From contig JAPCJR010000002.1 of NCBI GenBank assembly GCA_027886865.1, forward strand, positions 62,001-126,000: a stretch of 64,000 nt of DNA, read 5' to 3'. The number at the start of each line of letters is the position of its first letter. Within the stretch, counting starts at the first letter, position 1. The notes under the pieces were generated by a model, which saw only the letters and a list, made by a program, of their open reading frames with translations, ran no database searches and was not told where the DNA came from. The DNA is from Nitrososphaerota archaeon. GTDB lineage: Archaea; Thermoproteota; Nitrososphaeria; Nitrososphaerales; UBA183. A program made the position numbers and the translations under genes. Positions 2,780-15,560 of this stretch are shown piece after piece.

Positions 2780-4191
2780 GCCCTGTACTTGTAGTGCCTT
2801 TCGAAGACGTCGCTGCCGTGTTTGACCTCGACGGGCGCCTCGCCGGTTATCGCCATGAGCGTCTCTCTGTCTATCAGCCGCCTTCGTTCTCCTTTCCACT
2901 TGCCCTCGATGATGAACTTGGCGCCTTCGCGTGCCATCTCTACCGGGATGCGCGAGATCACGGGCTCGAAGAAACCGATCACGATCATCTTCTTGGCATC
3001 GTCACGGGAGAGTCCGCGCGCCATCAGGTAGAAGACCTGCTCCTCGTCCACCTGGGCGACCGACGCCGAATGGGTGGCCTTCACTTCGTTCGTGTCGATG
3101 TCCAGGCCGGGTATGCCGTCGGACCGGGCACCTTTGTCGAGGAGCATCGCGTGGTGTGCGAGGTAGGAGCTGGCGTTCTTGGCGCTGTGCGTGATCTTGA
3201 TCATCCCCTTGAATATCGACTGGGATTCGTCCTTGAGCACTCCCCGCGCGTGCAGCGCCGCGGTGGTGTCGGGCGAGTTGTGGAGCAGGTTCGACTCCAG
3301 GTCGAAGCGCTGCTTCCCGTTGCAGAAGAAGACCTCGAACCCCTCGACGTTGGCCCCGCGACCGTTGAGGTCGAAGTTCAGACGGGACCGCGTTATCTGC
3401 GAGCCGAGCAGGATGGACGTGACGATCACGTGCGAGTCCTTCGCCGCGCCCACCTCCTTGTTAGAGAGGAAGGTCGCGTTGCCGTCGAGGAGCTGCAGGC
3501 TGCTTGCGTCGACGTGTGAGGATGCGCCGGCCCTAACCTCGAGGACCGAACTCGTCAGGTACGGCTTCTCGCTGCTGCTCGTGTAGAGCTCCTCCAGGAA
3601 GTTGAGCTTCGAAGCATCCTCTGCGTGGATGATCGTCTGGTCTATGATGCTGGTCCCGGGGTTCTTGACCAGCAGGATCTTCCTCAGTGGCGAGCTAATC
3701 TCGACGCCGCGCGGGACGTGGATGAAGGTCCCGCCGTTGAAGAAGGCGTTGTTGAACGCGGCGTATTTCTCGCCGCTCGACTTGACCAGTTTATCCTGGA
3801 AGAGAGCCCGCAGTAGGTCTTCCTTCTTGGAGACCGCCTCATGGATGCTGAGGACCTCCAGCCCGCTCGACGAAAGCGTCTCGTCCAGGTCTACGTGGAT
3901 CGTCGCAGAGTTGCCCTGCAGGATGACGTTGGTCTCCTTTCCCGTCAGGTAGCCCTCGAAGTGCGAGCGCAGGTCGACCTTGTCCATGGGAGGGGCGACG
4001 GAGAATTGCGCCGGGTCGAACTGCGAGATGCCCGTGTACTTTGTGTAGAGAGGGGATATCTCTAGCGGAAGCCTGAGGAACTCATTGAGAGACTCGGTCC
4101 TGAACTTTCTGAGCCATTCGGGCTCGCCTAAGGCAGAGGATATGGCGGCGACTCTTTCCTCGGTGAACGCGCCCACTGATTGCTGGGCCAT
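2776..4191 (-). CDS. sufD: SufD-type FeS scaffold subunit
   Basis: 471 residues of the SufB/SufD beta-helix family. With SufB and the ATPase SufC it forms the SufBC2D scaffold on which clusters are built. The C-terminal third carries the family signature, including a THSASVAQVDEEQVFYLMAR stretch near 396-415 and the GFFEPV helix after it. It is assigned SufD rather than SufB because the SufB-type gene precedes it and is better conserved. The ATG is 24 bp after the sufB stop and the TGA overlaps the Rieske GTG. Nothing is truncated. Confidence 0.9.
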   Translation of the reverse strand: MAQQSVGAFTEERVAAISSALGEPEWLRKFRTESLNEFLRLPLEISPLYTKYTGISQFDPAQFSVAPPMDKVDLRSHFEGYLTGKETNVILQGNSATIHVDLDETLSSSGLEVLSIHEAVSKKEDLLRALFQDKLVKSSGEKYAAFNNAFFNGGTFIHVPRGVEISSPLRKILLVKNPGTSIIDQTIIHAEDASKLNFLEELYTSSSEKPYLTSSVLEVRAGASSHVDASSLQLLDGNATFLSNKEVGAAKDSHVIVTSILLGSQITRSRLNFDLNGRGANVEGFEVFFCNGKQRFDLESNLLHNSPDTTAALHARGVLKDESQSIFKGMIKITHSAKNASSYLAHHAMLLDKGARSDGIPGLDIDTNEVKATHSASVAQVDEEQVFYLMARGLSRDDAKKMIVIGFFEPVISRIPVEMAREGAKFIIEGKWKGERRRLIDRETLMAITGEAPVEVKHGSDVFERHYKYRA

Positions 4192-13432: not shown

Positions 13433-13622
13433 CCGCTTGGAAGACCGGCGCAGACTTTGGCTCCAACTCTCGACGCTGACCAGTGCCGACCCCTTTCTCG
13501 CCCCCCGGGCTTCATACTAATAAATTCGCGAGACGCAGAGTCCATAGCCAGAGTGGTTATCGCCCATTCTCCGTCCCGCGCAAGATTATGGCCGCGCCAA
13601 GGGAATCTGAACTCGTCTTAAG

Positions 13623-14305: not shown

Positions 14306-14335
14306 GCATATTTGGCGGGCCCGGTGGGATTTGAA

Positions 14336-14356
14336 TTCGTGGACGCTGTTGCGCCT
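14336..14356 (-). other. 21-nt noncanonical tRNA intron at 53/54
   Basis: Lies in the T arm. The flanks form a bulge-helix-bulge site: central helix CGTG/CACG, 5' bulge GGA cut after GG, 3' bulge AAT cut after AA, and an inner helix GGCGC/GCGTC closed by AACA. Cutting both bulges after the second base removes exactly 21 nt and restores a normal 7-base T loop. The outer helix is absent, as in relaxed archaeal motifs. Confidence 0.8.
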
Positions 14357-14372
14357 CCCACGACATGCTGGT

Positions 14373-14389
14373 ATCTCCCAAGAGCTAGC
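14373..14389 (-). other. 17-nt canonical tRNA intron at 37/38
   Basis: Lies in the anticodon loop after A37. The 5-bp anticodon stem is the outer helix, CTCT (32-35) pairs with GGAG of the intron as a 4-bp central helix, and the bulges are TAG and ATA. Cleavage after the second base of each bulge gives the normal loop. The intron has only a short terminal loop beyond the central helix. Confidence 0.8.
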
Positions 14390-14454
14390 TAAGAGCCAGC
14401 CGCTCTAACCTGGCTGAGCCACGGGCCCGCTGTTCGCAAACCCATGAAAGAGAC

Positions 14455-14519: not shown

Positions 14520-15560
14520 TTGGGAAAACTAACCTTCGTCGGTCTCGGCCTGGGCGACCAGGGCGTAAGCATCGCAGGGGTGAACGCCATCAAGCAGGCG
14601 GACCAGGCGTACCTTGAATACTACACGAGCCCGTACGCCCCGAGGCTGCTGCAGGAGCTCGAGGGCGCGACTTCGAAGACCATGACGATAGTCGACCGGG
14701 TCTTCGTCGAGGACGGGAAGAAGATCCTCCAGGAAGCGGCCACGAACGACGTGGTCCTCGCCGTGCAGGGGGATCCCATGATAGCCACGACTCACAGCGA
14801 CCTCCTCGTCAGGGCCGTCTCGCAGGGCATAGAGACGACGATCATCCATGGCGCTACCATCCCGACGGCGGCGGCCAGCGCGAGCGGCCTGCACTTCTAC
14901 AAGTTCGGGGCTACCGTCACCTTCACAAGGGACGCGGTGAGCTACCATCAGCAGGTGTACAAGAGGGTCCAGCAGAACCTGCTCGACGGTTCGCATACTT
15001 TACTCCTGCTGGAGTACGACACCGAGAGAGGCGAAGGCGTCACCCCGGCTGGGTTGATGTCGGGGCTGCTCGAGGCGGAGGGGAACTTCAAGAGGGAGGT
15101 GGTCAGCGAGCAGACGTTCCTCGTCCTGCTCAGCAGGGTCGGCACGCGGCAGGAGACCGTCAGGGCCGGGACGATCGCAGCCCTGAGGGACATCGACTTC
15201 GGAGAGCCGCCCCACGTCGCGATAGTGCCTGCAAGGATGCACTTCACCGAGAAGGAAGCCCTCGCAGCGGTGACGGGACTCGCGGAAGCGGAGGTGCGGG
15301 AGAACGGCGTCGAAATGAAGCGAACGGCGCAGGTACTCATACCCAGATACGCTGAAAAGGCTAAGAAGGCCCTGCAGGTCGCCAGGACCAACTTGAAGGA
15401 GGGTTACGAAGAGCTCTTCGAGAACGTCGAGCTGTACACGAAGGACGGGGAGACCTTTCTGGCCAGCGGTCAGGACGAGCTGGCGATGCTGAGCATAGGC
15501 TATGCTGAAGGCCTCTTGGATGCACTGAGATTTACCGGAAAGCTTGAGATGGAGTGGTGA
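14520..15560 (+). CDS. dphB: diphthine synthase fused to a DUF357-like helical domain
   Basis: 346 residues from a TTG (TATA-like GATTATTAAC at about 14482-14491). Residues 1-265 are the tetrapyrrole-methylase fold of DphB: LTFVGLGLGD at the start, VVLAVQGDPMIATTHSDLL near 79-97 and PTAAASASGLHFYKFG near 113-128. DphB trimethylates the EF-2 histidine intermediate during diphthamide synthesis. Residues 275-346 form a separate helical domain (ALQVARTNLKEGYEELFENV) that resembles DUF357. The usual DphB length is about 260-270, so this is a fusion. The gene is followed by ribL after 3 bp. Confidence 0.87.
   Translation: MGKLTFVGLGLGDQGVSIAGVNAIKQADQAYLEYYTSPYAPRLLQELEGATSKTMTIVDRVFVEDGKKILQEAATNDVVLAVQGDPMIATTHSDLLVRAVSQGIETTIIHGATIPTAAASASGLHFYKFGATVTFTRDAVSYHQQVYKRVQQNLLDGSHTLLLLEYDTERGEGVTPAGLMSGLLEAEGNFKREVVSEQTFLVLLSRVGTRQETVRAGTIAALRDIDFGEPPHVAIVPARMHFTEKEALAAVTGLAEAEVRENGVEMKRTAQVLIPRYAEKAKKALQVARTNLKEGYEELFENVELYTKDGETFLASGQDELAMLSIGYAEGLLDALRFTGKLEMEW

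Follow-up and report, generated by a model that had tools for sequence, protein, structure and literature searches.

A predicted LAGLIDADG homing endonuclease gene adjoins a two-intron tRNA-Lys(CTT) gene in a Nitrososphaerota archaeon

Introduction

Archaeal tRNA genes can carry bulge-helix-bulge (BHB) introns at noncanonical sites. The available portions of two accounts list position 53/54 as one such site (PMC4090602), report up to three introns per tRNA gene, with a broad substrate range tied to the alpha2-beta2 splicing endonuclease, and place the Thaumarchaeota among the clades with many tRNA introns (PMC4090602, PMC8450103). The mechanism of tRNA intron transposition is there called still unknown (PMC4090602).

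In Caldiarchaeum subterraneum, as given in the available part of the description, a 5′ fragment of tRNA-Thr(GGU) (positions 1-27), a same-strand ORF and an intact tRNA with an extra 24/25 intron stand together (Sugahara 2012, PMC3293823). The extra intron was proposed to be protective, SVMProt classed the ORF as a putative recombinase, and the event was modelled on a pNOB8-type integrase (PMC3293823). Fungal mitochondrial genomes hold mORFs that bring a substitute gene end, in atp6, cox2, nad3 and atp9 of Glomus and atp6 of Allomyces. In the portion of that report available, their layout is gene core, inserted end, endonuclease ORF (mostly LAGLIDADG) and displaced native end, and in one case, cox2, a group I intron lies just before the inserted end (PMC3630166).

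Here we describe a tRNA-Lys(CTT) gene with two introns in a 64,000-nucleotide stretch of a Nitrososphaerota archaeon genome (hereafter, the window). Since the 53/54 site and multi-intron tRNA genes are already known, its introns alone are ordinary. What sets it apart is the homing endonuclease gene predicted beside it: the available portions of the intron accounts describe no such partner (PMC4090602, PMC8450103), and among the openly licensed papers listed in our searches, at the level of titles and first abstract lines, we found no report of a homing endonuclease beside archaeal tRNA genes or paired with archaeal tRNA introns. This neighbor, absent from the initial annotation of the locus, changes what the 53/54 intron means.

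Results

A tRNA-Lys(CTT) gene with two introns

The initial annotation had proposed a tRNA-Lys(CTT) interrupted by 17 nt after A37 and by 21 nt between positions 53 and 54, and we find the gene exactly so, on the minus strand (Table 1). Removing both introns restores a standard tRNA-Lys(CTT) with perfectly paired acceptor (7 bp), D (4), anticodon (5) and T (5) stems and the T loop TTCAAAT, also as first read. We regard the predicted two-intron anatomy as confirmed, with very little room for doubt. The Rfam tRNA model finds the gene when the region is scanned alone (37.3 bits at 14316-14428; cut-off 29); ARAGORN misses it. The Rfam run over the whole window at the gathering cut-off also missed it, so automatic annotation may lose such genes. 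With lengths of only 17 and 21 nt, the introns do not qualify as group I or group II introns; Rfam gave no intron-family match around the gene and, at gathering, none of any family in the window. As regards a possible second tRNA-Lys(CTT) copy, in the genome with the most similar tRNA (G401, 95%) the motif CTGGCTCTTA is present once, at tRNA-Lys, a count that a copy with a different anticodon stem would escape.

Table 1. Positions of features at the tRNA-Lys locus of the window
Feature	Position	Strand	Remarks
Candidate T-loop remnant, decayed, from a displaced tRNA-Lys: GTTCAGATTCC	13602..13612	minus	weak: 9 of 11 letters
Free-standing LAGLIDADG homing endonuclease (predicted), 217 aa	13623..14276	minus	two LAGLIDADG-type motifs; Pfam PF14528, 2.2e-13
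tRNA-Lys(CTT) gene, two introns	14313..14428	minus	encoded CCA at 14315-14313; minus-strand reading and Rfam tRNA match
tRNA-Lys(CTT) exons and introns	exon 14428-14390, intron 14389-14373, exon 14372-14357, intron 14356-14336, exon 14335-14313	minus	
53/54 intron, 21 nt	14336..14356	minus	precisely missing in 17 of 41 family genomes
37/38 intron (canonical site), 17 nt	14373..14389	minus	missing in relatives such as G350, G403 and G147
dph5 (diphthine synthase), synteny anchor	14520..15560	plus	conserved neighbor

The dph5 gene served as synteny anchor. A scan of genome contigs with dph5 gave a single locus, and the nearest relatives of the window's gene are 71% identical in a 400-genome sample of the class and 74% identical in G403, within the family. 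Among the seven homologues listed with a named organism, six are from Nitrososphaerota/Nitrososphaerales and one is labelled Spirochaetia. An archaeal-type dph5 also occurs in a record titled 'bacterium' (L001), a label that is probably wrong. The dph5 of the window (14520-15560) has a C-terminal DUF357 domain (PF04010).

Intron states change repeatedly within one archaeal family

We compared the locus across 46 genomes of one archaeal family (that of G372, which we infer to belong to Nitrososphaeria). A complete tRNA-Lys is found in 41 of them; in G399 the gene is divided between contig ends, and G312, G215, G397 and G332 yield none. The same fetched stretch contains dph5 in 38 of the 41. The comparison with relatives' tRNA-Lys genes, proposed at the outset, bears out the 53/54 intron: an insert of 21-22 nt is present in 24 of the 41 genomes and precisely missing in the other 17. 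Some loci are identical letter for letter (G147 and G407; G223 and G409; G201, G202, G411 and G413) and therefore come from close kin or shared contigs; with identical loci removed and the window included, the insert is found in 21 of 37.

Over the 41 genomes and the window (n = 42), 25 genes have an intron at 53/54, 12 at 15/16, 27 in the D stem (22-25) and 31 at 37/38; the D-stem sites 22/23 and 24/25 are sometimes inseparable because of an AG repeat. Genomes range from no intron (G164) through a D-stem intron only (G350) to three introns (G372 and others). An insert at 43/44 occurs among family genomes in G316 only, whose tRNA-Lys (L070:1723-1833) has 23 extra nucleotides at about this position, beside an upstream endonuclease.

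On a tree of dph5 only, the gene adjoining the tRNA (40 rows, 39 used), the minimum number of state changes is 11 for the 53/54 intron, nine for 37/38, seven for 15/16 and six for the D stem; for the endonuclease genes described below it is nine upstream and four downstream. Sister rows differ in their intron sets, as in window/G403, G170/G147 and G406/G408. The two introns had been put forward as a useful lineage marker, and this we reject, because intron states flip between close relatives (at least 11 changes for 53/54 and at least nine for 37/38).

In G412 a second 3′ part of tRNA-Lys with both introns lies at a contig end (L223, G412:C40), with the full gene on C55. In G164 a short contig (L066, G164:C42) holds two intronless tRNA-Lys copies about 3.2 kb apart (53-125 and 3348-3420), the second with an acceptor mismatch; the arrangement resembles an element with a tRNA copy at either end.

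The 53/54 intron fits a bulge-helix-bulge

The BHB first outlined for the 53/54 intron (CGTG/CACG central helix, GGA and AAT bulges, GGCGC/GCGTC inner helix) agrees with the window letter for letter. Its central helix, made of intron and exon letters, pairs 14362-14359 with 14341-14338, and a 4-bp helix with two 3-nt bulges at the splice sites can be read from the sequence. By eye the 37/38 intron fits a BHB as well (C32-U35 with GGAG); its inner helix is weak.

We assessed the 53/54 structure over 21 distinct T-arm sequences, including two for which the gene is incomplete (the fragment in G321 and the contig end in G399). It is paired in 96.8% of cells, and in 100% for the central helix. None of 500 shuffles reached its covariation score or its paired percentage, and slid controls are only 20-56% paired. 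The inner helix is kept while the sequence of the insert differs among genomes, although its innermost pair is broken in six of the 21 sequences. The central helix is nearly invariant (three of four pairs never vary), and pairs changed on both sides number three, a count that 36 of 500 shuffles reach too. Judged by these alignments, the predicted structure is more than chance. Thermodynamic folds favor the T stem and the inner hairpin over the BHB central helix, and a fold of the pre-tRNA-Lys alone contains no BHB.

Matches to the splicing endonuclease EndA number two in 24 of the 46 genomes, one in 15, three in one and none in six. In G401 there are two separate genes, of 181 and 185 aa, and by reading only one of them keeps the catalytic histidine.

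A LAGLIDADG endonuclease gene adjoins tRNA-Lys

On the same strand as tRNA-Lys, with 36 nt between the encoded CCA and the start codon, lies an intact ORF whose product is, by profile and fold, a predicted LAGLIDADG homing endonuclease. The AlphaFold2 model (pLDDT 95.6, pTM 0.92) has its best fold matches in PI-PfuI (1dq3; E = 1.6e-12) and I-DmoI, with which it has the two-motif fold in common. Those enzymes are intein- or intron-encoded according to their PDB titles, whereas the window's is free-standing beside an intact tRNA gene. We found 67 homologues, and in an alignment of 53 of them with the window's sequence (54 in all) neither motif acid, D21 or D125, varies. Five of the 67 have a longest contig equal in length to that of one of the 120 dph5 homologues listed. 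Virus contigs gave no match to the tRNA cassette pattern; distant LAGLIDADG proteins occur there at 51 loci (22-39% identity).

Matches to the endonuclease occur in 20 of the 46 family genomes, many adjoining tRNA-Lys. Using start-codon ORFs with the tRNA masked (E ≤ 1e-4) and fetched flanks of up to about 3.5 kb on each side, we find an endonuclease, whole or decayed, adjoining tRNA-Lys in 13 of 41 genomes and the window, always on the same strand and 27-45 nt away by match edges. It is downstream in the window, G304, G333 and, decayed, G170 (27-39 nt), and upstream in G097, G147, G219, G316, G321, G344, G403, G404, G407 and G408 (29-45 nt); the upstream genes of G147, G407, G403 and G404 look broken. 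The other 28 of the 42 loci have no match beside tRNA-Lys at this threshold and within these flanks. G219 also has a decayed downstream piece with a stop, yet no 53/54 intron.

By simple association, with P-values that ignore kinship and are followed by the value after removal of identical loci, the 53/54 intron accompanies a downstream endonuclease in four of four cases (one decayed) vs. 21 of 38 elsewhere (P = 0.11, 0.09), whereas with an upstream endonuclease it is rarer (one of 10 vs. 24 of 32; P = 0.0004, 0.002) and the D-stem intron (10 of 10 vs. 17 of 32; P = 0.006, 0.016) and the 15/16 intron (seven of 10 vs. five of 32; P = 0.002, 0.011) are more frequent. Sign tests that respect kinship, on independent pairs, give median P-values of 0.0625 for upstream endonuclease and 15/16, 0.0625 for upstream endonuclease and 53/54, and 0.375 for 15/16 and 53/54.

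One alternative would be an ordinary archaeal tRNA gene with two BHB introns, its endonuclease neighbor being coincidental or making use of a neutral flank. Both 53/54 introns and genes with up to three introns are on record, 21 of the 25 genes with a 53/54 intron now have no downstream endonuclease, and neither the thermodynamic folds nor the window's own flank adds support for anything more elaborate. Against this, the same neighborhood and strand recur at 14 loci of one tRNA gene, EndA genes used as a control lie near a tRNA at none of 30 loci (within 300 nt; these loci are syntenic, so not independent), and G304 and G333 keep intronless displaced tRNA pieces right behind the endonuclease. 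We consider this account unlikely.

Displaced pieces of older tRNA-Lys genes

With the intact tRNA masked, we searched the family loci for further tRNA-Lys sequence (E ≤ 0.05). In G304 an exact 27-nt piece, CGTGGGTTCGAATCCCACCGGGCCCGC, starts 7 nt past the endonuclease stop; the piece in G333 is 23 nt long, belongs to a different allele type and begins 6 nt past the stop. Each represents the 3′ end of an older tRNA-Lys that lacked the 53/54 intron. The T-stem and acceptor letters of the G333 piece resemble those of G321 and not those of its own intact gene, and the intact gene of G333 is therefore a replacement. G404 has, in order, a 45-nt old 5′ piece, the endonuclease, the intact tRNA-Lys and a 17-nt T-arm piece (E = 1e-3), and the 5′ piece carries a D-stem intron that is different from, and missing in, the intact gene. 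An 80-nt 3′ piece in G321, with 37/38 and 53/54 introns, lies 50 nt behind an intact gene without 53/54. G302 holds a 99-nt 3′ piece 1253 nt behind the tRNA, with a 37/38 intron missing in the intact gene, yet it has no endonuclease match beside tRNA-Lys. G401 has a decayed 53-nt piece 102 nt upstream, and the two copies of G164, 3.2 kb apart, and the contig ends of G399 also match. Every piece at a locus with an intact tRNA is on the same strand as the tRNA; the remaining loci gave no displaced piece in this masked search at E ≤ 0.05.

In the window, the 11-nt piece GTTCAGATTCC lies 10 nt past the endonuclease stop, close to the site of the clear pieces in G304 and G333. In a position-bound test, devised after the piece had been noticed, it matches in nine of 11 letters, and three of 3232 control positions are as good. 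A free search for a displaced piece in the window gave a score of 12 against a shuffled mean of 11.1, and 191 of 500 shuffles scored as high. A displaced native end behind the endonuclease, as in mORFs, is thus clear in G304 and G333 and a weak match in the window.

In G304 the order of core, inserted 3′ end with intron, endonuclease and native intronless 3′ end is that of the fungal mORFs in the available part of their description (PMC3630166). The mORFs there concern protein genes in mitochondria, with a group I intron at the junction, whereas here an archaeal tRNA gene has a BHB intron that is predicted to be spliced by protein. What is new is that a tRNA gene has a BHB intron at this junction, and we read the intron as a block to re-cutting. 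The likeness to the tRNA-Thr of Caldiarchaeum, as far as the available portion of that report goes, consists in a tRNA fragment, an adjoining same-strand ORF and an intact tRNA with an extra intron; its ORF is set apart by its published description, whereas the ORF of this family is a predicted LAGLIDADG endonuclease that also occurs in the mirror-image downstream form, with a displaced piece without the 53/54 intron (PMC3293823).

The displaced older tRNA pieces beside the endonuclease suggest that the 53/54 intron is the endonuclease gene's own protection tag. In the reading that we favor, and hold to be reasonably probable, the window would present one allele of a mobile cassette, in which a homing endonuclease cuts a tRNA gene and supplies its replacement, and the intron of the new copy prevents a second cut. 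What we observe is the anatomy of the gene, where introns are present or missing, the linkage, and remnants of older alleles that lack the intron; the cutting and its target, the immunity, the splicing and the order of events would fit together as follows. The endonuclease would cut a recipient tRNA-Lys gene in its T arm, where this gene has no intron, and donor-templated repair would bring in the 3′ part of tRNA-Lys, or the whole gene, together with the endonuclease. The gene would stay whole, and the recipient's native 3′ end would become a defunct remnant behind the endonuclease. The incoming 53/54 intron would split the recognition site, so that the new gene escapes re-cutting, and removal of the intron from the pre-tRNA by a heteromeric splicing endonuclease would leave the carrier unharmed. 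The endonuclease would later decay while the intron persists. An upstream version of the cassette would use D-arm introns likewise. The 37/38 intron is not accounted for by this cycle. With a defined enzyme, target and immune allele, the gain of introns at unusual positions in archaeal tRNA genes would become a question for the test tube, and the disruption of tRNA genes would be tied to ordinary homing.

Two other explanations bear on the same pieces. On the Caldiarchaeum model, an integrase-driven element would use the tRNA as attB and bring in an intron-bearing att site, the endonuclease being a passenger or leftover; the tRNA-Thr case does combine a fragment, an ORF and an intact tRNA bearing an additional intron in this same way. 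In G304 and G333, however, only about 0.7 kb, with the endonuclease ORF, separates the tRNA from the displaced piece, and Pfam finds no integrase in 10 of the other ORFs of at least 150 aa in their 7.1-kb stretches, a set that left out four overlapping or antisense ORFs and the dph5 of G333. An integrase-driven origin seems improbable to us. We think it similarly doubtful that the introns originated in the host gene, or were favored there by selection, as a defence that spoils the site of the endonuclease (or of an integrase), and were not carried in. This would suit the many intron-bearing genes without an endonuclease and the presence of introns at several sites of one gene, but the pieces in G333, G321 and G302 differ from the intact gene in the acceptor or T stem, and the allele therefore came from elsewhere.

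Endonucleases near other tRNA genes

We also followed the endonuclease beyond tRNA-Lys. Of ten inspected relatives with short frames away from it, seven have a tRNA within 190 nt (L254-L260), a count that is biased because at five of the seven loci the tRNA was known before the locus was chosen; of the other three, L244 and L248 have no tRNA and L235 is an rRNA locus. ARAGORN names the seven tRNAs Pro, Ser, Ser, Lys, Val, Ala and Phe, and by eye the fourth is Thr(CGT) and the fifth Phe. The fourth (L257:1446-1538, G333:C66), Lys(TTT) in the ARAGORN call, has a D-arm intron when read by eye as tRNA-Thr(CGT). Its upstream neighbor, 48 nt away on the same strand, is an endonuclease gene, which recalls the tRNA-Thr case of Caldiarchaeum. 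Among 15 further matches to this first family, an Rfam scan finds a tRNA at L158 and L172 and rRNA at L169, and L163 has a tRNA by eye and ARAGORN. The other 11 show no tRNA in the Rfam scan, and seven of them are long open frames, probably inteins. The tRNA link of the first family beyond tRNA-Lys is thus mixed.

A second family (HTH and LAGLIDADG, about 270 aa) has a tRNA within 300 nt at 18 of the 30 loci fetched from 42 matches listed (L265-L294), 16 of them tail-to-tail; by ARAGORN alone, 16 of the 30 are near a tRNA. The tail-to-tail tRNAs are Pro, Ser, Cys, Thr, Ala, Ile, Asn and Met by ARAGORN, and four of the seven tRNA-adjoining short-frame loci are also among these 30. In the EndA control, read with ARAGORN, the corresponding count is zero of 30, for loci that are largely syntenic and not independent. 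At seven second-family loci a search for displaced pieces gave one weak antisense match.

Because the second family is near a tRNA at 18 of 30 loci, and tail-to-tail at 16, its tRNA link supports a wider reading, which we advance tentatively and at somewhat less than even chances. The free-standing LAGLIDADG endonucleases of this archaeal class may be tRNA-gene specialists, each with a substitute tRNA whose BHB intron at the cut site would act as a self-immunity tag. Noncanonical archaeal tRNA introns, multi-intron tRNAs included, would then largely be scars of homing waves.

Near two relatives of the second family we also noted SRP RNA genes, at L272 (908-1222) and L281 (2439-2751).
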